A program made the position numbers and the translations under genes. The notes under the pieces were generated by a model. That model ran no database searches, was not told the DNA's origin, and saw only the letters and a list, made by a program, of their open reading frames with translations. 64,000 nucleotides of DNA, taken from assembly GCF_006539865.1 (NCBI RefSeq), contig NZ_BJNV01000007.1, positions 1 through 64,000 of the forward strand. Reading direction: 5' to 3'. Source of the DNA: Zoogloea ramigera (GTDB taxonomy: Bacteria > Pseudomonadota > Gammaproteobacteria > Burkholderiales > Rhodocyclaceae). Shown piece after piece: positions 34,895 to 49,558 of the stretch. Position 1 is the stretch's first letter; each line of letters begins with the position of its first letter.

Positions 34895-37744
34895 TCAGTC
34901 CGGCGCCTCGGGCAGCTTGCTGCACTGTTTGATGTAAGGGATGTCCGGCGAGACCCATCGGCGCCACTGGCTGGTGCTCATGTTGCGGGTGAGCTTGGCG
35001 CACAGCATGTCGGGCCAGCGGGGTGGGGCGGCCCACAGGTGTAGCGCGCCGTTGCGGTCCACCGACTGGAGGTGCTGGCCGCCCGGGCGGAAGTTGAGTT
35101 TCTGGATCTGGCTGGCGTGGCCCTCCAGGGCCGGGCCGATCGGGACGCCGCTGTCGGCCTGCCACAAGCGCAGCTTGTGGTCCCAGCTGCCGGAGGCGAT
35201 GTGGCGGCCGTCCGCGCTGAAGGCCACGGAGCTCACCCACAGGCGGTGGCCGTACATGGCCTCGCCGATCGGGTTGCCGCTGGCCGGGTCCCAGCGGCGC
35301 AGGTTGCCGTCGGCGCTGCCCGACACGATCTGCCGGCCGTCGGGGCTCCAGGCGGCGGCGAGCACCCAGTTGCGATGGCCGGCGAGGGCCGGGCCAGCCG
35401 GCTGGCCGGTGGCGACGATCCACTGGCGCAGGTCGCGGTCGGCGCTGGCCGACACGATGCGGCGGCCGTCGGGGCTCCAGGCCAGCGCTGCGATCCAGGC
35501 GCTGTGGCCTTCGAGGGGCGGGCCGAGGGGGGCGCCGGTGGCGGCGTCCCAGAGGCGCACGGTGCTGTCCCAGCCGCCGGTGGCGAGGCGGCCGCCGTCG
35601 GGGCTCCAGGCGAGGGCCGAGACGGGGCCGGGATGGGCGGCGATGGCCTCGCCGATCGGCGTGCCGCTGCGCCCGTCCCAGCGCCGCAGGCTGCCGTCCA
35701 TGCTGCCGGCGGCGAGACGGCCGCCGTCGGGGCTGAATTCGAGAGCGAGGACGGGCTGGGGCGCGGTGGGCAGCGGAGTTTCGTCGGGGCCGTCGGCGTC
35801 GCGGCCGGAGGCGACCCGCCACAGGCGCAGCTGCAGGGTTTCGTCGGCGGCGGCGAGGCGTTTGCCGTCGGGGCTCACCGCGAGGCTGACGAAGCGGCGG
35901 GCCTTGCCCGTGCCGAGCGCTTCGCCGACGGGCGAGGTGCTGCGTGGGTTCCACAGGCGCAGGCTGCCGTCGAAGCCGGCCGAGACGATGCGCGAGCCGT
36001 CGGTCTGGGTGAAGGCGGCCGCAGCGACCGAGTCGCCATGGCCGAGCAGCGCGTCGCCGACGGCAGCGCCGCTGGCCGCGTCCCAAAGCCGCACGCTGCC
36101 GTCGTCGCCTGCCGAGACGATGTGCCGGCCATCGCTGCTGAAGGCCACGCTGCGCACCAGCCCGTCGTGGCCGAGGAGGGGCTGGCCAATGCGCCGGCCG
36201 CGGGCCACGTCCCACTGGATCAGGTGCCCGTCCCAGGCGCCGGAGACGAGGCGCGTGCCGTCGGGGCTGAAGGCGACGCTGCGCACGGAGTCTTCGTGGC
36301 CCAGCAGCGGCGCGCCGAGGGGTTTGCCGTCGCGCACCCGCCACAGGCGCAGGCTGCTGTCGTTGCTGGCGGTGGCGAGCAGGCGCCCGTCGGGGCTGAA
36401 GGCGAGGCCGGTGACCGCTTCCGCGTGGCCGACCAGGGCCTGGCCGAGGGGCTGGCTGGTGGCCACGTCCCAGATCTGGGCGGTGTTGTCGTCGCTGCCC
36501 GAGGCGGCCAGCCGTCCGTCGGGGCTGAAGGCGACGGCCCGCACGGCGTCGGCGTGGCCGGTGAGGGGGAAGGCCAGGTCGGGCTGGATGCCGCCGTCGG
36601 TGACGGCCCACAGGCGCAGGGTGGTGTCGTCGCTGCCGGTGACGAGGCGCCGCCCGTCGGGGCTGATGGCGAGGCTGCGGATGTCCTCGGGGTGGGCTTC
36701 GAGGGGCTCGCCGAGGCGGGCGCCGGTGCGGGCGTTCCACAGCTGGAGCCGGCGCGCGTCGTCGGCGGTGACGAGGCGCTCGCCGCCGGGGCTGACCACC
36801 AGGCCGACCAGCGCGGTCGGGGTGGCAATGAGGCGGACCAGATTCTTCTCGCGGCGCAGGGCCTCCAGCAGCCCGCCTTCGGCTTCGGCGTCGGCCTGGC
36901 GCGCAGCGCCCGCCAGGCGCAGGGCCGCGAGGAGCTGCTGCATGGCGCGCTCGTCCGGCTCGGGCCGCAGGCCGGCGAACATGGCCGCCGCCTCGGCGCG
37001 CAGGCGCAGCCCGACGGAGTTGCGCAGCTCGGCGCGGGCATGTTCCTCGGCGGCCCGGGCGCGCTGGGCTTCGGCTTCGGCCCGGCTGGCGTTCTGGTGG
37101 GCGAGGTAGGCGCTCCAGCCGGTGGAGGCGGCCAGCCCGAGCAGGCTGAGGGTGACGCCGGCCACCGTCACGCGCCACCACTGGGCGGTGCGCAGCTGGC
37201 GGGGAGAGAGGCTCAGGCGGTCCACCACCGCGGCGGTGGCGACGCCACGGGCGATGGCCTCCTCGGTGTCGTCGAGCCAGATCTGGTCGTGCACGTCGAG
37301 CCACGGGCGCACCGCCTCGGTGAGAGCCGCGTCCTGCATCGCGCCGCCGATGTTGATCGGGATGATCGGCCGGCCCGGGTGGTGCTTGCGGAAGGTCTCG
37401 ACTTCGGTGCGCACCCAGCGCGGGGCTTCCAGCGTGCCCCGGTTGGCGATCACGACCAGGATGCTCGAACGCAGCAGCGCACGCAGCAGGGTGTCGTCGA
37501 GATCCTCGCCCGGGGCGGCTTCGTCTTCGCTGTAAAAAACCGAGAAGTCCCGCTCCCGCAGCTGCCGGGCGAGGTCGGAGGCGTAGGACTGGGTGCCGCG
37601 CCCGGAGAAACCGAGGGCGAAGGAGATGAAGATGTCGTAGCCGAAGAGCGTCGAGGCGAAGGCGCGACGCCGGCGGGGCGGCCGTTGCCGGTGGCTGGGC
37701 GGAGGCGCTGCCGTCTGCGCGGCGGCTGTGGGCTGCTCGGACAT
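34895..37744 (-). CDS. Membrane-anchored TIR domain protein with 14 WD40 repeats
   Basis: A 949-residue protein. Proline/arginine-rich start, TIR domain (about residues 35-170, YDIFISFALGF to PIIPINIGG), a transmembrane segment (about 191-215), a short coiled coil (217-250), then 14 WD40 blades (about 300-900), i.e. two seven-bladed propellers. W110-xxx-E114 in PRWVRTEVETF sits where NADase TIR domains keep the catalytic Glu. The C-terminal tail (LCAKLTRNMSTSQWRRWV) is usual for bacterial WD40 conflict or signalling proteins. The ATG at 37744 follows GAGG; a longer frame to 37912 lacks support. No effector or defence partner is adjacent. Role unknown: sensing scaffold, abortive infection and signalling are all possible. 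Confidence 0.85.
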   Translation of the reverse strand: MSEQPTAAAQTAAPPPSHRQRPPRRRRAFASTLFGYDIFISFALGFSGRGTQSYASDLARQLRERDFSVFYSEDEAAPGEDLDDTLLRALLRSSILVVIANRGTLEAPRWVRTEVETFRKHHPGRPIIPINIGGAMQDAALTEAVRPWLDVHDQIWLDDTEEAIARGVATAAVVDRLSLSPRQLRTAQWWRVTVAGVTLSLLGLAASTGWSAYLAHQNASRAEAEAQRARAAEEHARAELRNSVGLRLRAEAAAMFAGLRPEPDERAMQQLLAALRLAGAARQADAEAEGGLLEALRREKNLVRLIATPTALVGLVVSPGGERLVTADDARRLQLWNARTGARLGEPLEAHPEDIRSLAISPDGRRLVTGSDDTTLRLWAVTDGGIQPDLAFPLTGHADAVRAVAFSPDGRLAASGSDDNTAQIWDVATSQPLGQALVGHAEAVTGLAFSPDGRLLATASNDSSLRLWRVRDGKPLGAPLLGHEDSVRSVAFSPDGTRLVSGAWDGHLIQWDVARGRRIGQPLLGHDGLVRSVAFSSDGRHIVSAGDDGSVRLWDAASGAAVGDALLGHGDSVAAAAFTQTDGSRIVSAGFDGSLRLWNPRSTSPVGEALGTGKARRFVSLAVSPDGKRLAAADETLQLRLWRVASGRDADGPDETPLPTAPQPVLALEFSPDGGRLAAGSMDGSLRRWDGRSGTPIGEAIAAHPGPVSALAWSPDGGRLATGGWDSTVRLWDAATGAPLGPPLEGHSAWIAALAWSPDGRRIVSASADRDLRQWIVATGQPAGPALAGHRNWVLAAAWSPDGRQIVSGSADGNLRRWDPASGNPIGEAMYGHRLWVSSVAFSADGRHIASGSWDHKLRLWQADSGVPIGPALEGHASQIQKLNFRPGGQHLQSVDRNGALHLWAAPPRWPDMLCAKLTRNMSTSQWRRWVSPDIPYIKQCSKLPEAPD

Positions 37745-37932
37745 GGGGGCCTCGGGGGTGGAGCCGGAGGAAGCGGAACGGTCTGGGTGAGGGGGAACCC
37801 TCTGAAAGTGTAGTCCGCCCTTGCCGGGCCTGCCGGCCGATGAACGGTGCGGGTGCACCGACAGGCGGGCGACCTGCGGCATCGCGCGAGCGTCATCTGC
37901 GCAGGATGTCACATGGAATTCACGCGAGGCGT

Positions 37933-37960
37933 TTGGCTTTTAGAAACAAGCTGCTACACT
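37933..37960 (+). promoter_or_regulatory. Promoter of the riboswitch-pilin transcript
   Basis: TTGGCT (37933-37938), 16 bases, then TACACT (37955-37960) preceded by TGC as an extended -10. The predicted start near 37966 would place the transcript 5' end at the beginning of the aptamer (GCACATAGG). Confidence 0.5.
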
Positions 37961-37961
37961 G

Positions 37962-38042
37962 CAAAGCACATAGGCAAACTGCAGGCAACTGCAGGACGCA
38001 AAGCCACGGGTCCTCCGCGTTGAGGATAGCCGGGTTGCCCGA
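37962..38042 (+). promoter_or_regulatory. Cyclic di-GMP-I (GEMM-I) riboswitch aptamer
   Basis: The conserved GEMM-I blocks appear in order: GCACATAGGCAAACTGC, a CTGCAG stem closed by a GCAA tetraloop (37985-37994 region), the invariant GGACGCAAAGCCACGGG, a variable helix CCTCCGCG/TTGAGG, and AGCCGGGTTGCCC. The layout follows the Vibrio Vc2 aptamer. It precedes the minor pilin operon, linking c-di-GMP level to pilus assembly. Downstream GCTTTGCGT (38070-38078) is exactly complementary to ACGCAAAGC (37996-38004) of the core, and can instead join a hairpin CCAAGCG/CGTTGG (38064-38081). This is the probable expression platform. Direction of control is not decided by sequence. Confidence 0.93.
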
Positions 38043-38121
38043 CACGCTCCTCGTGCCGGTTCTCCAAGCGCTTTGCGTTGGCCTTTGTAATTAGCCCCAC
38101 GACTAATACAAGGGATCGACG

Positions 38122-38436
38122 ATGAAGCGCTTATCTACCGTTCGCATGGCTGCTCCACGCGCAACGGCTCTGGTTTCCCGCTGCTCCGCCCAGGCTCACG
38201 CCCAGCCCCGTTCCCGGGACGCTTCGGTGTGCCTCGCCCACATCGCCACCTCGCGCCCATTCAGCCACGTGCGTTGCGTCCGGCGCGTTTCTGCCCGGCC
38301 TGCAGGCCGGATAGGCATCCAGCGTCAATCCCCCGTCAAGGTCGTTTCAAATTTGTCGTTACTGCTTACTGCATGCAGCGGCAATGGTTTTCATCAGGCG
38401 GTCCGGCAGTGCCCCCAATACCTCGGGCAACGTTGA
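38122..38436 (+). CDS. Possible small leader protein after the riboswitch
   Basis: A 104-codon frame from ATG 38122, with AAGGGA seven bases upstream, is the first translatable frame after the aptamer. Its product is Arg/Ser/Ala-rich with eight Cys and matches nothing I know; codon choice looks less regular than in the pilin genes. It may be a real small protein, a decayed gene or chance. The rest of the 470-base leader up to fimT shows no other feature. Confidence 0.25.
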   Translation: MKRLSTVRMAAPRATALVSRCSAQAHAQPRSRDASVCLAHIATSRPFSHVRCVRRVSARPAGRIGIQRQSPVKVVSNLSLLLTACSGNGFHQAVRQCPQYLGQR

Positions 38437-38510
38437 ATCGTCGGGATGGCCGGGTGCGTGCAGACACTGGTTTGCGGCCCCGCAGAGCAAGGCAGGATCG
38501 GAGGCGCACT

Positions 38511-39095
38511 ATGCACAAAAAGACACTTCAGGGATTCACCCTCGTGGAGCTCATCGTTACGCTGGCCGTAGCGGCGATCCTCATGGGCACGGCGGTTCCC
38601 TCATTCACGTCGCTCGTGAATTCCAACCGGCTCGCCACCCAGGCCAACGACCTGCTGGGGGCGATGATGATTGCGCGCAGCGAGGCCATCCGCCTGAACC
38701 GCCGCGTGATCCTGTGCAGCAGCAGCGACGGGGCCACCTGCTCCAGCGACGCGGGGCGCTGGAACGGCTGGATTGTGTTTGCGGACAACAACCGCAATGA
38801 CTCCCCCGACAGCGGCGAGGTGCTGCGCGTCGGCACGATCTCGCCGACCGATGTAGTGGTGCAGGGCAGCCAGCGGATCGTCGATCAGGGCAACCGCATC
38901 CGGATGGGGGCCGACGGCCTGGTTCGCGCCGCGACGGGCTCTTCGGCAGTGCTGCTGCAGGCCAAGCTGTCGGTGTGCATCGCCACCACTTCGGTGCCCC
39001 AGAACACCCGCGAGATCCGGATCGGGGCGGGTGGGCAGGGGCTGATCGTCCCCGTCAATAACGATGGCACCTGCCCCGTGCCGTCGAACGCCTGA
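38511..39095 (+). CDS. fimT: Minor pilin FimT/GspH family
   Basis: A 194-residue type IV pilus minor pilin. Prepilin leader MHKKTLQG is followed by the N-methylation site and hydrophobic helix FTLVELIVTLAVAAILMG; PilD would cut after G8. The globular part has Cys pairs (LCSSSDGATC, VCIATT, GTCPV). It primes pilus assembly with PilV, PilW, PilX and PilE. GGAGG precedes the ATG at 38511; in-frame sequence further upstream would bury the leader and is rejected. First gene of the pilin operon behind the c-di-GMP riboswitch. Confidence 0.9.
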   Translation: MHKKTLQGFTLVELIVTLAVAAILMGTAVPSFTSLVNSNRLATQANDLLGAMMIARSEAIRLNRRVILCSSSDGATCSSDAGRWNGWIVFADNNRNDSPDSGEVLRVGTISPTDVVVQGSQRIVDQGNRIRMGADGLVRAATGSSAVLLQAKLSVCIATTSVPQNTREIRIGAGGQGLIVPVNNDGTCPVPSNA

Positions 39096-39121
39096 TCCAT
39101 CCACCGGAACATCGGCAGATC

Positions 39122-39565
39122 ATGAAAAAAATCTCCTCCCTCAAGACGCAGAAGGGCGTCGGGCTCATCGAAGTGCTGGTTTCCATGCTGATCCTGTCGA
39201 TCTGCCTGCTCGGGATGGCGGCGCTCCAGACCGTGGCCCTGCGCAATGGCCAGAGCGCCCAGTCCCGCTCGATGGCGGGCATCATGAGCAACTCGATCAC
39301 CGACGCGATGCGCGCAAACGTCACTGAGGCGCGTAATGGCGCCTACAACGGCAGCACCTGCGATGTGAGTGGCGAGCCGGGTGGCTCCCTCGCCGACTCG
39401 GACATCACCGCCTGGGTGAGCTCCCTCAAGCGTGCCATCGGCCAGAGCGCCTGCGGCACGGTGCTGTGCCAGGCCGGCCAGTGCGACATCACGGTTCAGT
39501 GGGATGACTCGCGGGCGAGTGCCGGCTCGAGCACCCACCTCGTCACGACTCGGGTCCAGCTATGA
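39122..39565 (+). CDS. pilV: Type IV pilus modification protein PilV
   Basis: A 147-residue minor pilin. Leader MKKISSLKTQKG, cleavage before VGLIEVLVSMLILSICLLGM, with the conserved Glu at position 5 of the mature protein. The C-terminal part has Cys residues (STCDVS, SACGTVLCQAGQC) likely forming disulfides. The stop overlaps the start of pilW by four bases. Confidence 0.9.
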   Translation: MKKISSLKTQKGVGLIEVLVSMLILSICLLGMAALQTVALRNGQSAQSRSMAGIMSNSITDAMRANVTEARNGAYNGSTCDVSGEPGGSLADSDITAWVSSLKRAIGQSACGTVLCQAGQCDITVQWDDSRASAGSSTHLVTTRVQL

Positions 39566-40596
39566 CGCATCGCAGCAGCCCCCTCATGATGCCCTCGCCC
39601 CATCAGCGGGGGCATACGCTCATCGAGCTGATGATCGCGCTCGTCCTCGGGCTGGTGCTGGTGGGCAGTGTCTTCGTGGTGTTCATGGGCAGCCGGATGT
39701 CGTTCAACACCTCCGACAACCTGTCCCGGATGCAGGATTCGGCGCGCATCGTGTTTGCCCTGATGAGCCGTGAGATCCGCGAGGCGAGCGGCACGGGCTG
39801 CGGCAATGGCGGACGGGCCGACAACGACATCGCCCGGCGGAACCGCAGCGTGCTGAACGCGGCCCAGTCGGCCACGCCTTCCTGGTGGAGCCTGATGGGA
39901 ACCGGCATCCAGGGTTTCGACGCCAGCCAGGTCACGCCGGCCGTCGCCATCGGCACGGCCGTGGGGCAGCGGCGGAGCAACACCGACGCGCTGCATCTGG
40001 CCGGAGCCTACGGGGCCGGCTTCAGCGTCGAACTGCATAGCGGCACGACGAACCAGTTCAAGCTCAACACCACCCAGTCCGGGCTCGCCGCCAATGACGT
40101 GCTGATCGTCTGCGACTACCGGCAATCGACGGTCTTCAACGCGTCGAGCGTCTCGGGCGACCGGGTGGCTTACGCGGTGGGTGCGGGCGGGCGCAAGAAC
40201 TGCGGCACCGCCCTGGCCTACGATACGGGGGTGGCCTGCCCGACAGGCAGCTATTTCTACGACCCGCTGATCTCCCGCCTGAGCCGCTTCGGTGCGTCGG
40301 CGTGGTACATCGGCAACGGCTCCAGCGGCCGGCCGTCCCTTTTCCGGGTGTTCCTGGACGGGGGGCCGGAGGAGATCGCGGCCGGCGTCACCGACATGCA
40401 GATCACCTATCTCGCCGACGGCAGCACCGCCTACGTGGACGCCAGCGCGGTGACGGACTGGGCCAGCGTCTCCTCGGTGCGCCTCACGCTGAGCTTCGAG
40501 AGCGCGGACGCCGCCGTGTCCACCGCGACCACCGGAGACCGTCGCCTGACGACCGCGACGACCAGCACCATCGCCCTCAGAAACCGAATGCCATGA
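39562..40596 (+). CDS. pilW: Minor pilin assembly protein PilW
   Basis: A 344-residue minor pilin. Leader ends QRG before HTLIELMIALVLGLVLVGS. The length and C-terminal region match the PilW family, the largest of the priming minor pilins. The stop overlaps the pilX ATG (ATGA), indicating coupled translation. Confidence 0.9.
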   Translation: MTHRSSPLMMPSPHQRGHTLIELMIALVLGLVLVGSVFVVFMGSRMSFNTSDNLSRMQDSARIVFALMSREIREASGTGCGNGGRADNDIARRNRSVLNAAQSATPSWWSLMGTGIQGFDASQVTPAVAIGTAVGQRRSNTDALHLAGAYGAGFSVELHSGTTNQFKLNTTQSGLAANDVLIVCDYRQSTVFNASSVSGDRVAYAVGAGGRKNCGTALAYDTGVACPTGSYFYDPLISRLSRFGASAWYIGNGSSGRPSLFRVFLDGGPEEIAAGVTDMQITYLADGSTAYVDASAVTDWASVSSVRLTLSFESADAAVSTATTGDRRLTTATTSTIALRNRMP

Positions 40597-41096
40597 AACG
40601 CCCTGCAACCCACCAGCGCGGTGTCGCGCTGATCGCGTCGATGCTCATCCTGATCATCATCACGCTGCTCGGGCTGTCGACGATGCGCAGCGCCGGGCTG
40701 CAGGAGCGCATGAGCGGCAACCAGTACGACCGCAACGTGGTGCTCGAGGCCGCAGAGGCGGCGCTCCGCCAGGGCGAGGCGATCGCCGCGGCGCCCCTCA
40801 CCATCCCCGCCACATGCACCAACGGCGTGTGCCCCAAGCCCGTTGCGGGCATGGCCGATCGCTGGACGGATTCGGGCTTCACGGGCTGGCAGGCGGCCAC
40901 CAGCACGCGCCCGGCGCTCGTCACCAGCCAGTTCATCATCGAGGACATGGGCCCCCAGCCTGCCGACGGCACCTGCCATCTGCAGATCCCGGTCGAGCCC
41001 ACCTGCCTCGTCCCGCTATACCGCGTCACGGCCCAGGCCCGGGCGACCAATAGTCGCGGCACCATCGTGACGCTGCAATCCAACATCCGCCAATAA
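40593..41096 (+). CDS. pilX: Minor pilin assembly protein PilX
   Basis: A 167-residue minor pilin. Leader MKRPATHQRG, then VALIASMLILIIITLLGLST, lacking the Glu5 of most pilins as is usual for PilX. The motif GNQYDRNVVLEAAEAALRQGE is typical of PilX N-termini. It works with PilY1 at the pilus tip. It is followed 12 bases later by pilY1. Confidence 0.9.
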   Translation: MKRPATHQRGVALIASMLILIIITLLGLSTMRSAGLQERMSGNQYDRNVVLEAAEAALRQGEAIAAAPLTIPATCTNGVCPKPVAGMADRWTDSGFTGWQAATSTRPALVTSQFIIEDMGPQPADGTCHLQIPVEPTCLVPLYRVTAQARATNSRGTIVTLQSNIRQ

Positions 41097-41108
41097 TCGG
41101 AGTCCGTC

Positions 41109-44100
41109 ATGAGAACTCTGTCTTGTCGCTCGGCTGGCCAGCGATCGAAGCTGGCCACGCTTCCGGTGGCCGTGGCCCTCGCACTGGCGAGCTCGCCTGG
41201 CCACGGCGTCGTCGACCTCCCCACGGCGCCGCTGCAGTCAGCGGCGGCGATCCCCTCGAACATCCTGTTCCTGCTCGACGACTCGGGCAGCATGCAGTTC
41301 GAGATGATGCCCGAGGACCTGATCATCTTTTCTGATGCAAAGTACTTTTATCCTGTGGGTCGGCCCGTTATCGTTTATCTTTTTCCACCCCCCAATAACC
41401 AGTACAACGGCCTCAATTACTCGGCAGCCATCCCGGCCTTCGACGACCAGAGCTACCACAATTTTTTCCGGCGCTCATCGGCTAACAACAATATCTTCTA
41501 TGATCCGACGATCACCTATACCCCATGGGTCAGGCACGACGGGTCGTCCTACGGAAACGCCTCGGCGACGGCCGCCTACTACAACCCCGCCAATACGGGG
41601 GCGGGCACCCTCAACCTGACTACCGAGAAGACCAACGTCAACAGCACCCTGTGGATCAAGGGGACCACCCCGGGCGATTATTCCCTGTGCTCCACCTACG
41701 CCTGCCAGTCCTACTGGCCGATCACCTTCTACATGTACAAGGGCACGGGCGATCGGGCCCTCGCCAGCAGCTACGTCAAGTACCAGATCCAGGGTGCGAC
41801 CGGCTACAGGACGGACCTCAACGGCGGCACGCCGAGCGCCGTGAGCAGCTTCAACTGGGGTTCGGTGACGCGCACCGTGGCGGAGGAAACCCAGAACTTC
41901 GCCAACTGGTTCAGCTACTACCGCTCCCGCGCCCACGCCGCCAAGGCCGGTGCCAGCATCGCCTTTGCCAAGCTCGGCACCAATTATCGGGTGGGTTTCA
42001 GTACCATCAACACCGCGAGCCTCGGCAACGTCATCCCGACCTCCGGCACCTTCGACGGCACCAACCGCCAGAACTGGTTCAATGCGCTGCTCGGTGCGCC
42101 CATCCCGCCCCAGGGGACGCCCCTCAAGGAGTCCCTCAGCCGGGCCGGCGATTACTTCAGCCGCACCGACGACAGCGGGCCTTACGGCCCGGCGCCGCAG
42201 TTGTCGTGCCGCCGCAACTTCACCATCCTGACCACCGACGGCTACTACAACGAGCCGGCGGTACCCCTCAGCTTCGGCAATGAAGACAACACCGCCGGCT
42301 CCACGATCACCGGGCCGGGCTCCCAGAGTTATCAATACGTGCCGTCCCGGCCCTACCAGGACAGCTACACCGGCAGCCTGGCCGACATCGCGATGTATTA
42401 CTGGAGGCGGGATCTGCGCACCGATCTCACCAACAACATCCGCACCACCAGCACCAACCCATCGTTCTGGCAGAACATGAGCACCTTCACCCTGTCCCTG
42501 GGGCCCCAGGGCACGCTCACCCCGCCGCCCAAAACACCCAACGATCTGGCCGCCCTGACCAGCGGGAGCAAGGTCTGGCCCGACCCCGCCACCGGCGAAG
42601 CCAAGAAGATCGACGACCTCTGGCACGCCTCGGTGAACGGCCGCGGCACTTTCGTTGCCGCCAAGAATCCCACCGAGTTCGCCGAGGGCCTGGTGTCGGC
42701 TCTCAACACCATCGGCGAGTCGGGTGGCGCGTGGAACGTCGCCCTCACGTCCAGCACGGTCGAGACCGACGGCCGGGTGTTCGTTGCCCGCTACGACGGC
42801 AGCTGGGGCGGTGACCTGTGGGCCGTGGCCTACAACGCCACGGGCAACATGAACACCACCGCCGACGGCACGCCGATCCCGGTCTGGAAGGCATCCACGC
42901 AACTGCCGGCCGCGGCTGATCGCAAGATCTTCACCTGGAAGGACAACGGTGGTGGTGGCATCGCGTTCACTTACAACAACCTCAGCAATGCCAAGCAGAC
43001 CGCGATCGGCAGCAGCGACGTGGTCGATTTCGTGCGCGGCGTCACCAGCAAGTCGGTGGCCAGCGGCGGCACCCTGCGCAACCGCAGCTCCCTGCTGGGC
43101 GACATCGCCAACCCCGCGCCGGTGTATGTGAAGGCCTCGAATACCGTTTTTGCGCCGGCCAACGACGGCATGCTCCACGCGTTCAATGCCGCCACCGGCG
43201 CCGAAGTGTTTGCCTACATCCCGGGTGGGGTCAATTTTGCCGACCTGAAAGCCTTCTCCAGCCCGACCTATTCGCACAAGTTCATCAACGACGGCGAGAT
43301 CGCGGTGTCCGACCTGGCTGCCACCGGCAAGAACATCCTCGTCGGCTCCCTCGGCCGCGGCGGCAAGACGGTGTATGCCCTCGATGTCACCAACCCGGCG
43401 AGCTTCGGCACCAACAACGTGATGTGGGAGTTCACCGACACCGATCTGGGCCAGGCCCTCGGCAAGCCGGTCATCGTCAAGCTGAACACCGGCGACTGGG
43501 CGGTGCTGATCGGTAACGGCTACAACAGCAGTACCGAGAAGGCCTTCCTGTTCGTCATCAACCTCAACACTGGCGCGCTCATCAAGAAGATCGCCACCGG
43601 GGTGGGGTCTTCGACCAGCAGCAACGGGCTGGCGACGCCGGTGGGTTTCGACCAGAACGGCGACGGCAAGCTCGACCTGGCCTATGCGGGCGACCTCCTG
43701 GGTAACTTCTGGAAGTTCGACCTGACCGGTGCCAGCTCCGCCTGGACCGCCACCTCGATGTTCGTCGCCAAGGATGCCAGCAACAACGTCCAGCCGATCA
43801 CCGGCGGCCTCTCCATCGCCATCGACCCCAAGACCAACAAGCGCTGGATCTTTGGCGGAACCGGTCGCTACCTGTCGAACTCCGACGTCTCCAGCACCGC
43901 GGTCCAGAGCTGGTACGGCCTGATCGACGATGGCACCGTGATCAGCTCCCGCGCCTCGCTCACCCAGCGTACCCTCAGCGCCGCCTCGGCCCAGGGCAGC
44001 TACCTCACGCGGACCTTCTCGGTCGCCAGCGCCAACGACATGGTCGGCAAGAAGGGCTGGTACGCAGACCTCACCCCCGCCAGCGTGGCGAGCGGCGAGC

Positions 44101-44486
44101 GGATCGTCTCGCGCAGCCAGTACTCGGCGGGCGTGCTGTACGTGAGCAGCATCGTCCCGAGCTCAGACGTGTGCGCCTCGGGGGGCAGCGGCTTCGTGAA
44201 TGCGGTGGACGCCTTCAGCGGCGCCAGCCTCACCAAGCCCTTCTTCGACATCAACAACGACAAGCTCTTCACCGACGCCGACAAGAAGCTCGAAGGCGGC
44301 CGGCTGCTCCCGGCCGGCTCGATCCGCACCACCGGGATGATCGGTGAGATCAACGTCAAGAAGATCAGCGGTGACCAATCCACCGCCCAGAGCTGCGACA
44401 CCACCGGCGCCTGCAAGGCGCTGCCCAACCTCAACCTGCGTGCGCTCAGCGGGCGCATCTCGTGGCGCGAGATCGTCACCGAGTAA
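41109..44486 (+). CDS. pilY1: Type IV pilus tip adhesin/assembly protein PilY1
   Basis: A 1125-residue exported protein. Signal sequence (about residues 15-32), von Willebrand A-like region with MIDAS motif DDSGSM (57-62), and a C-terminal PilY1 beta-propeller holding a calcium loop DQNGDGKLD (848-856) like the one controlling pilus extension and retraction in Pseudomonas. PilY1 sits at the pilus tip, promotes adhesion and can feed surface signals into c-di-GMP pathways, which is notable given the riboswitch upstream. CGGAG precedes the ATG. Confidence 0.94.
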   Translation: MRTLSCRSAGQRSKLATLPVAVALALASSPGHGVVDLPTAPLQSAAAIPSNILFLLDDSGSMQFEMMPEDLIIFSDAKYFYPVGRPVIVYLFPPPNNQYNGLNYSAAIPAFDDQSYHNFFRRSSANNNIFYDPTITYTPWVRHDGSSYGNASATAAYYNPANTGAGTLNLTTEKTNVNSTLWIKGTTPGDYSLCSTYACQSYWPITFYMYKGTGDRALASSYVKYQIQGATGYRTDLNGGTPSAVSSFNWGSVTRTVAEETQNFANWFSYYRSRAHAAKAGASIAFAKLGTNYRVGFSTINTASLGNVIPTSGTFDGTNRQNWFNALLGAPIPPQGTPLKESLSRAGDYFSRTDDSGPYGPAPQLSCRRNFTILTTDGYYNEPAVPLSFGNEDNTAGSTITGPGSQSYQYVPSRPYQDSYTGSLADIAMYYWRRDLRTDLTNNIRTTSTNPSFWQNMSTFTLSLGPQGTLTPPPKTPNDLAALTSGSKVWPDPATGEAKKIDDLWHASVNGRGTFVAAKNPTEFAEGLVSALNTIGESGGAWNVALTSSTVETDGRVFVARYDGSWGGDLWAVAYNATGNMNTTADGTPIPVWKASTQLPAAADRKIFTWKDNGGGGIAFTYNNLSNAKQTAIGSSDVVDFVRGVTSKSVASGGTLRNRSSLLGDIANPAPVYVKASNTVFAPANDGMLHAFNAATGAEVFAYIPGGVNFADLKAFSSPTYSHKFINDGEIAVSDLAATGKNILVGSLGRGGKTVYALDVTNPASFGTNNVMWEFTDTDLGQALGKPVIVKLNTGDWAVLIGNGYNSSTEKAFLFVINLNTGALIKKIATGVGSSTSSNGLATPVGFDQNGDGKLDLAYAGDLLGNFWKFDLTGASSAWTATSMFVAKDASNNVQPITGGLSIAIDPKTNKRWIFGGTGRYLSNSDVSSTAVQSWYGLIDDGTVISSRASLTQRTLSAASAQGSYLTRTFSVASANDMVGKKGWYADLTPASVASGERIVSRSQYSAGVLYVSSIVPSSDVCASGGSGFVNAVDAFSGASLTKPFFDINNDKLFTDADKKLEGGRLLPAGSIRTTGMIGEINVKKISGDQSTAQSCDTTGACKALPNLNLRALSGRISWREIVTE

Positions 44487-44517
44487 GCACGCTCGAGCCC
44501 GAGCGAAGGAGACCACC

Positions 44518-44970
44518 GTGCGCAACACACCACCGTCCCCACAGCGGCCGCTCCGGCGGCAAGGGGGCATGACGCTCATCGAGCTGATGATCGCGGTCGT
44601 CATCGTCGGCATCCTCACGATGATCGCCTATCCCAACTACACCAGCCATGTCGTCAAGAGCCGGCGCGGCCAGGCCACCGCCTGCCTTCAGGAGGCCAGC
44701 CAGTTCATGGAGCGCTTCTACACCACCAACCTGCGCTACGACCAGACCACCGGCGGCGCAGCGGTCAGCCTGCCCACCACGTCGTGCATCCAGGACATGA
44801 GCGGCCGCTACGTGATCTCGATCGGCAGCGTGAACGCCAACAGCTTCGTCCTCCGGGCAACGCCCCAGGGCGCCCAGGCCAGCTCCGACACCCAGTGCGG
44901 CACCTTGAGCCTCAGCCAGAACGGGACGAAGGCGGTGTCGGGCACGGCGGCGGTGGCTAGCTGCTGGTGA
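44518..44970 (+). CDS. pilE: Type IV minor pilin PilE
   Basis: A 150-residue pilin. Leader MRNTPPSPQRPLRRQGG, then MTLIELMIAVVIVGILTMIA with Glu5. The C-terminal region has two Cys pairs (TACLQEA, TSCIQDM, TQCGTL, ASCW). Order and size match P. aeruginosa pilE, last of fimU-pilV-W-X-Y1-pilE. Start is GTG at 44518 with GAAGGAG upstream; an ATG at the mature N-terminus cannot be the start because the leader is required. Confidence 0.9.
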   Translation: MRNTPPSPQRPLRRQGGMTLIELMIAVVIVGILTMIAYPNYTSHVVKSRRGQATACLQEASQFMERFYTTNLRYDQTTGGAAVSLPTTSCIQDMSGRYVISIGSVNANSFVLRATPQGAQASSDTQCGTLSLSQNGTKAVSGTAAVASCW

Positions 44971-48199: not shown

Positions 48200-49072
48200 T
48201 CAAACCACACCGGGGCCGGCCCACCAGCCGCTCATCAGGCCTTCGGGCTTTTCCGGTGCGCTGACGCGGGCACTGCTTTCCCAGGCTTCAACCTGTACGT
48301 CGAGCCCGGCGAACACGCCATAGCCCTGTCCGGCGCGGATGCCTTCGCCGGCCCACAGGCTCTCGCCCGCCCGGATGGCCCCGTCCGCATGGATGACCCC
48401 GCCCGCCTTGATCCCCCACCCGGCCTCCAGGTGCATGGCGCCGTGGATCGAACCGCCGGCGGCGATGCCCTGGGCCACCCGCAACTGGGCCTGGGCCGTG
48501 AGGTCGCCGCCCACGTGCAGCCCCTTGGCACAGCGTAGGTCGCCCTCGCTGCAGAGGTCGATGCCGACGAAGGCGCTGCCCTCCAGGCGCAGTCGGCCGG
48601 CGCAGTGGAGGTTCCAGCCGGCGCGCAGCTCTCCGCCGCAGCGCAGGTCGCCGGCCGACTCCACGCCCCAGCCGGCCCGCAGGTCACCATCGACCGCCAC
48701 GCGGCCGCCAGCCCGCACCTGGCCTTCGACCCGCAGGTTTCCCCCGACGATCAGGTCGCCGCTGGTGCGCAGGCCGCCCTCTACCCGCAGATCGCCGCCG
48801 ACGTGCAGCTTGCCTTCGACGTCCACGTTGCCTCGCACCTGCAGCGTGCCTGTGAACACGAGCGCGTCCGCCTCGATTTCATCGACGACCCGTACTTCGC
48901 CGGTCGGCCCGAACTGTTCGAGCAGCCAGCATGCGTCGCCGACCCGGCCGGCTGCGACCATCGTGTCGAGCAGCTCCTGGTAATTGCCGCCTTCGTCGAA
49001 CTGGCGGACGAACCAGCGGAATCCATCGGTGCACGGGCGCTTGGCCCGGACGAAACTTCTTGTGAGAACCAT
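48200..49072 (-). CDS. Repetitive beta-helix (bactofilin-like) protein
   Basis: A 290-residue protein in two parts. Residues about 1-55 form a compact domain (RPCTDGFRWFVRQFDEGGNY, then LLDTMVAAGRVGDACWLLEQ) I cannot name. Residues about 65-270 are short Gly-rich repeats of about six residues such as GGDLRV, GGNLRV, AGWGVE and AGGSIH, as expected for a right-handed beta-helix of the polymer-forming bactofilin kind. The ATG at 49072 has GAGGGG upstream. No membrane segment is present. It probably assembles as a scaffold; the role is unknown. Confidence 0.7.
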   Translation of the reverse strand: MVLTRSFVRAKRPCTDGFRWFVRQFDEGGNYQELLDTMVAAGRVGDACWLLEQFGPTGEVRVVDEIEADALVFTGTLQVRGNVDVEGKLHVGGDLRVEGGLRTSGDLIVGGNLRVEGQVRAGGRVAVDGDLRAGWGVESAGDLRCGGELRAGWNLHCAGRLRLEGSAFVGIDLCSEGDLRCAKGLHVGGDLTAQAQLRVAQGIAAGGSIHGAMHLEAGWGIKAGGVIHADGAIRAGESLWAGEGIRAGQGYGVFAGLDVQVEAWESSARVSAPEKPEGLMSGWWAGPGVV

Positions 49073-49558
49073 TACATCACCCCTCGGCAAACGGGCTGCC
49101 GCGCATGGCGCGGCACTCAGCAGCCCGGGCGGGGGCGTTGCACAGGAAGGGTTTTTCGCGGCCCGGAAAGGCCCGGGGCATGGCCGCTGTCACGGCCGTG
49201 GGTGCGAAAAGGAGGGCGCCTGGCTTCCCGCTCTGGCTGCACGTTGAACAAGGCACAGAAAGCTGTGCCCTGGGCAAGGTGCCGTGCGGGGTGGCCTGGG
49301 ATCAGTCCCGGTTCCGGCCCCGCACGGCCTGGGAAAGCACGGCCGGGGACCCTGTAACCTTGAAGGCCAGCGCCAGCCCGATACCGAGGTGGCCTGACGG
49401 AGTCTGCAGTCTGCCGGGCACCCGACGGCCCGCGTCGTGAAACGCGCAGGCGTAAGCGTCGAAGTGCATGGAAGGCATCACGGGCAGACCCGATGGAGAG
49501 GGAACCCGATTATAGGCCAGGCGCAGGCCCCCGGGTGAGCGCCGGGGCCGTGAACGAC
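49073..49558. other. Gene-free stretch with two strong hairpins
   Basis: No convincing reading frame. Hairpin one is GGCACAG/CTGTGCC (49252-49269) with loop AAAG. Hairpin two is a perfect 11-bp stem, GCCGTGCGGGG (49281-49291) and CCCCGCACGGC (49318-49328), enclosing an inner GGGA/TCCC hairpin. Together they make an 80-base structured element. It could be a small RNA or a repeat-type element. The promoter of the beta-helix gene should also lie here. Confidence 0.45.

Follow-up and report, generated by a model that had tools for sequence, protein, structure and literature searches.

Pilus assembly is primed by minor pilins together with PilY1, which in Pseudomonas also take part in surface signalling. 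Bordeleau and colleagues are said to have described, in 2015, a c-di-GMP-II riboswitch before the type IV pilus operon of Clostridioides difficile. This pilus riboswitch turns expression on. We know of no riboswitch at the fimU operon of Pseudomonas aeruginosa. That operon has an activator-bound promoter just upstream (AlgR, at sites including CCGTTTGGC, and Vfr; PMC4064291, PMC8787478). A cyclase reduced the pilY1 mRNA of another organism, Azoarcus sp. CIB, 3-3.5 fold, in a study whose scope did not include riboswitches (PMC7998248). In the part of the literature that was covered, no paper was found joining c-di-GMP riboswitches, Betaproteobacteria and type IV pili, or joining c-di-GMP-I riboswitches and Rhodocyclaceae. 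Zoogloea is a main floc former in activated sludge, and as a member of the Rhodocyclaceae it belongs to the Betaproteobacteria in traditional taxonomy. In this study, we analyzed a c-di-GMP-I (GEMM-I) riboswitch that lies before a minor-pilin/PilY1 operon in a 64-kb stretch of Zoogloea DNA, hereafter the window.

Aptamer and predicted ligand

The features of the locus are listed in Table 1. The aptamer was the sole Rfam gathering-level match in the 64 kb. The initial annotation had read a GEMM-I riboswitch here and named a covariance-model search as a check. The search gave a strong result, 68.6 bits with RF01051 against a curated cut-off of 35 bits, and together with compensatory changes it showed that the riboswitch is genuine. 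Among 19 Zoogloea aptamers, 13 of the 21 pairs had changes on both sides (0/500 shuffles), the covariation score was 0.506 compared to 0.189 in shuffles, and 89% of cells were paired. The compensatory changes were numerous in the P2 and P3 helices.

Table 1. Positions of the features of the riboswitch, its leader and the pilin operon in the window.
Feature	Position	Strand	Evidence or remark
Promoter-like region TTGGCT, 16 nt, TACACT	37933..37960	+	putative, read by eye
c-di-GMP-I (GEMM-I) aptamer	37964..38043	+	cmscan 63.1 bits, E=1.5e-12; RF01051 68.6 bits
J1/2 strand CACATAGGC, anti-SD partner in ON fold	37967..37975	+	forced-pair partition functions, three orthologues
Core strand ACGCAAAGC, binding site and anti-core partner	37996..38004	+	sequence; invariant in orthologues
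Extended hairpin, AUG buried too (window)	38066..38132	+	-32.4 kcal/mol, z=-5.9, 0/200 shuffles
Anti-core strand GCTTTGCGT	38070..38078	+	exact 9-base complement of core
Anti-SD/SD hairpin (CCTTTGTAATTAG...CTAATACAAGGG), OFF state	38082..38114	+	conserved
Shine-Dalgarno AAGGG (38110-38114) and ATG (38122-38124) of leader ORF	38110..38124	+	conserved in both sisters
Leader ORF, 104 aa, no domain	38122..38436	+	no Pfam match; 96 aa in both sisters
58-nt block, without differences among three genomes	38325..38382	+	contains CCCCGTC...TTTCAAATTTGTCGTTAC; probable promoter/activator element
fimT (GspH-type prepilin)	38511..39095	+	PF12019 1.5e-16, PF07963; own SD GGAGG
pilV-position minor prepilin	39122..39565	+	PF07963 only; named PilV from gene order
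pilW	39562..40596	+	PF16074
pilX	40593..41096	+	PF14341 4e-15
pilY1 (1125 aa)	41109..44486	+	PF05567 2.1e-39
pilE/ComP-like prepilin	44518..44970	+	PF16732 3.6e-24; uncertain start codon

All conserved blocks had also been claimed to be present. The CTGCAG/GCAA/CTGCAG hairpin at 37979-37994, with its GCAA loop, and GGACGCAAAGCCACGGG were found, but the usual tetraloop-receptor sequence of the c-di-GMP-I consensus (CUAA...AUG) is missing from P3. Docking of a GNRA loop into a P3 receptor is typical of c-di-GMP-I riboswitches and is not obligatory. It is possible that the plain helical P3 serves as tetraloop receptor. The missing canonical receptor could also weaken c-di-GMP binding, and the affinity is uncertain. 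Just upstream, positions 37930-37963 were 94% identical in both sister genomes. From the promoter-like TTGGCT/TACACT, transcription would begin close to where the aptamer starts; a strict sigma-70 scan did not return this region (37933-37960).

The best Rfam E-value for the window was that of RF03167 (GGC), and RF03168 (UAU) came first for a sister, which could point to another ligand, either 3',3'-cGAMP or that of the GGC or UAU variants. The ligand-contact bases were compared with the Rfam consensus lines, which read GGCAAA/CGCAAA/UGCC for c-di-GMP-I, CGCGAA at the second place for GGC, and UGCAAA and UGUC for UAU. AUAGGCAAAC, GACGCAAAG and GGGUUGCC aligned to these lines gave G20, A47 and C92, the canonical c-di-GMP-I set, in Vc2 numbering. 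The GGC variant (RF03167) requires G47 (CGCGAA), and the window reads CGCAAA despite its 63.1 bits. The UAU variant (RF03168) requires U20 and U92, and both the window and sister L023 have G and C. cGAMP switches (GEMM-Ib) carry A20, and the window has G20. A different ligand is therefore very improbable. The GGC top label is misleading because the contact bases are canonical. Moreover, Rfam labelled one sister GGC and the other UAU, and both have the contact bases of the window; these labels are thus not ligand calls. They reflect other subtype features, such as the plain P3 helix, and the predicted ligand of the window aptamer is c-di-GMP. We also observed that the GGC and UAU labels fall on near-identical aptamers (L023, L027, L020 and window 37964-38043) that have neither variant's contact bases.

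Anti-core strand and Shine-Dalgarno occlusion

The nine-base complement described in the initial annotation was exact: GCTTTGCGT (38070-38078) is the reverse complement of ACGCAAAGC (37996-38004). Complement runs of at least 9 bases arose in 8 of 2000 dinucleotide shuffles against the core (0.4%) and in 56 of 2000 against any part of the aptamer (2.8%), so the complement alone is only moderately surprising. The anti-core was invariant in both sister loci, where the complement is 10-11 bp long with changed flanks. A switching element can thus be read here as had been claimed, with an anti-core strand that is real and conserved in two sister genomes. A related strand (GCGTnnGCC/GCGTTTCC) was found in other TGCAG-type aptamer leaders, and these leaders have a common anti-core/anti-SD module in several gene contexts in the genus. 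Core/anti-core pairing was rejected as a general trait of the family, with at least 9 bp in 2 of 69 loci (0.2 expected), both at this operon.

An exact and conserved anti-core would also suit a terminating riboswitch, in which core/anti-core pairing, competing with a CCAAGCG/CGTTGG terminator, sets polymerase access to fimT. c-di-GMP-I riboswitches with a terminator are known, for example Bc1 (PMC11218506). However, no terminator-like site (a GC-rich hairpin and then a U run) was found in 37850-38560. The CCAAGCG/CGTTGG hairpin that had been proposed needs a bulge in the window, has no U run and is absent in both sisters. Termination near 38085, which had been expected, is not matched by an intrinsic terminator, and the platform looks like occlusion of the Shine-Dalgarno (SD) and AUG. 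We consider a terminating riboswitch to be highly unlikely.

The anti-SD/SD hairpin was kept in 9 leaders despite their differing sequence (z -1.8 to -3.1), and the energies of the extended hairpin in the sisters were -25.2 and -28.3. The ON fold (core:anti-core plus J1/2:anti-SD) was evaluated by forced-pair partition functions in three orthologues. In RNA ending at the SD, this fold had the advantage over the aptamer fold, with differences of 2.8 kcal/mol for the window, 9.0 for MAG-181 and 9.1 for MAG-273. SD accessibility in these RNAs was 0.51-0.97 in the ON fold compared to 0.00-0.06 in the aptamer fold. In the full-length window RNA, the ON fold was 11.2 kcal/mol worse than the OFF fold even without ligand. 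Since OFF is favoured in the full-length RNA, the ON state must be kinetic, reached during transcription. In these computed folds, the locus has the properties of an RBS-occluding platform, namely an SD/AUG hairpin that is mutually exclusive with the aptamer-disrupting fold.

According to the folding model, the aptamer would fold first as the RNA emerges. When c-di-GMP is bound, the aptamer would hold, the anti-SD would pair with the Shine-Dalgarno, and the first ORF would be untranslated (OFF). When no ligand is present, the aptamer core and J1/2 would be invaded by the anti-core (38070-38078) and the anti-SD (38081-38088), leaving the Shine-Dalgarno free and the first ORF translated (ON). 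The predicted direction is thus OFF with ligand. On balance, we favour a c-di-GMP-I riboswitch with a translation-type platform that occludes the RBS and is OFF with c-di-GMP, together with a separate operon promoter near 38325-38400.

Leader ORF and the pilin operon

As had been claimed, a complete fimT-pilE operon lies directly 3' of the riboswitch. Pfam gave the order fimT-pilV-pilW-pilX-pilY1-pilE on the same strand (38511-44970), with GspH/FimT, a gene in PilV position, PilW, PilX, PilY1 and ComP/PilE. The nearest named relatives of the PilY1 were from Zoogloea, with best-segment identities of 88 and 86% in two MAGs and 70-72% in two more. The betaproteobacterial setting given in the initial annotation was also right, since this is Zoogloea of the Rhodocyclaceae. 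The divergent neighbour of the riboswitch (34895-37747, minus strand) encodes 950 aa with 10 WD40 repeats by Pfam and a TIR-like N-terminus by eye; its only PADLOC matches were one to HEAT-ARM_XIII, in the repeats, and a weak one to PDC-S66. A bactofilin-like protein is encoded at 48200-49090 on the minus strand of the window.

The occluded start codon is that of the leader ORF and not that of fimT, which begins 389 nt further on and has a GGAGG of its own. Against the sisters, dN/dS was about 0.7-0.8 for the leader ORF compared to about 0.14-0.20 for fimT. Differences at the three codon positions were flat in the leader ORF (14/24/22) and 11/10/43 in fimT. A conserved leader protein was rejected, as the flat pattern has no third-position excess. 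Any effect on fimT would therefore act on the transcription that reaches fimT.

The block at 38325-38382 is probably the promoter/activator region of the operon itself. The TGTCGTTAC motif of this block, with an upstream CCCGT, was also found in related form 80-120 nt before fimT in the riboswitch-less G022, G004 and G018. One of the seven orthologues (G003) had no clear copy of this element before fimT. Because the fimT-proximal element also occurs in riboswitch-less orthologues, exclusive control of the operon by the riboswitch is doubtful. It may even be that the riboswitch serves only the leader ORF, or a lost or decayed gene, and that the pilin operon uses its own promoter at about 38325-38400. 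This would agree with a leader ORF without protein selection, with the common element before fimT, with the SD that fimT has of its own, and with the occurrence of this cassette type before a DUF4189-type gene at other Zoogloea loci. We find it rather unlikely, given that no terminator separates the riboswitch from fimT and that two further genera also have GEMM-I before pilin/PilY1 operons. In the sister comparison, promoter, aptamer and platform were 87-96% identical, whereas the leader ORF was about 72% identical, which argues that the switch is still maintained.

An effect of the switch on fimT could be polarity on the untranslated leader, adding to the promoter near 38325-38400. Rho loading on the C-rich leader was rejected, since its rut-likeness lay at the 87th percentile after allowing for scanning and was not significant; Rho polarity thus gains no positive support. 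We suggest only tentatively that, in one Zoogloea subclade, the riboswitch gates translation of the leader ORF and polarity sets readthrough into an operon with its own activator-driven promoter. If true, leader-translation gating and the operon's own promoter would amount to two-input control of pilus priming. Control of the pilus operon by the riboswitch is plausible and not established, and the closed PilY1/c-di-GMP loop is a conjecture.

Distribution in Zoogloea and Rhodocyclaceae

The genome of the window has five GEMM-I aptamers. At least one was found in 18 of 24 Zoogloea genomes and in 101 of 200 Rhodocyclaceae genomes, so a GEMM-I aptamer is ordinary in this lineage. An orthologous PilY1 was present in 7 of the 24 Zoogloea genomes, 67-89% identical to that of the window (the window itself aside), and the riboswitch was present at three of the seven orthologous operons and absent from four; in one of these four, G018, the sequence covered was the 578 bases before fimT. 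The window operon is accessory, the second PilY1 operon of its genome. The other PilY1, which is genus-wide, lies on a separate contig (G000:C9:52440-54551, L133) and is 36% identical; no GEMM was found in the 11.5 kb covered around it. A genus-model search of the other named PilY1 loci gave no aptamer at a meaningful score.

In the family, GEMM-I was found before pilE-fimT-pilV-pilW-pilX-pilY1-type operons in two genomes of one genus (G029, G140) and in one of another (G041). None of 60 further GEMM loci sampled in the family was directly followed by a minor-pilin operon. The occurrence in two other genera suggests that the linkage between GEMM-I and minor-pilin genes probably arose repeatedly, and it is uncommon in the family. 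In one Zoogloea subclade, a cassette type used before other Zoogloea genes would have come to lie upstream of the operon. Its origin by synteny with the DUF4189-type locus was rejected, as only the aptamer aligns.

Other GEMM-I loci were seen during the survey. On contig C41 of G000, aptamers of different subtypes at 35925-36004 (minus) and 36244-36328 (plus) stand back to back about 240 bp apart, each driving its own direction (loci L002, L004, L012). In three other family genomes, GEMM-I is followed after 3.3-3.6 kb by a GspG-like pseudopilin (GFTLLELLVVM.IIGLL; about 3459, 3439 and 3300 at L142, L144 and L145), which may belong to a c-di-GMP-controlled type II secretion operon. Other Zoogloea GEMM-I aptamers (L011 7135-9418, L016, L024, L014) stand before a DUF945+TPR protein by Pfam and, as read from the sequence, before a sedolisin-like protease that is secreted and a protein resembling cytochrome c peroxidase.

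Comparison with known systems

If the proposed link is true, a direct c-di-GMP RNA connection to minor-pilin/PilY1 genes would give Zoogloea a simple way of linking the signal to adhesion, in a family where GEMM-I is common and seldom stands before minor-pilin operons. The window aptamer has the core, three-helix fold, G20/A47/C92 and 5'-leader position of RF01051 c-di-GMP-I riboswitches. It differs from the usual members in that it lacks the usual P3 tetraloop-receptor sequence and gates a short non-conserved leader ORF before a minor-pilin operon. In Clostridioides difficile, a c-di-GMP riboswitch likewise stands before type IV pilus genes, but it is of another class (c-di-GMP-II) and in another organism. 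The GEMM-Ib riboswitches of Geobacter have the same aptamer scaffold, with A20 and cGAMP there and G20 in Zoogloea. The Pseudomonas aeruginosa operon fimU-pilVWXY1Y2E has the same gene set as the Zoogloea operon. The Zoogloea CCCGTTT motif resembles the AlgR site CCGTTTGGC only loosely (PMC4064291). Within the genus, the riboswitch genes of DUF4189 type (L020, L021, L022, L025) share with the window both the aptamer subtype and the anti-core/anti-SD platform. At these loci the occluded SD is that of a 200-aa coding gene of DUF4189 type, whereas in the window it is that of a short leader ORF.
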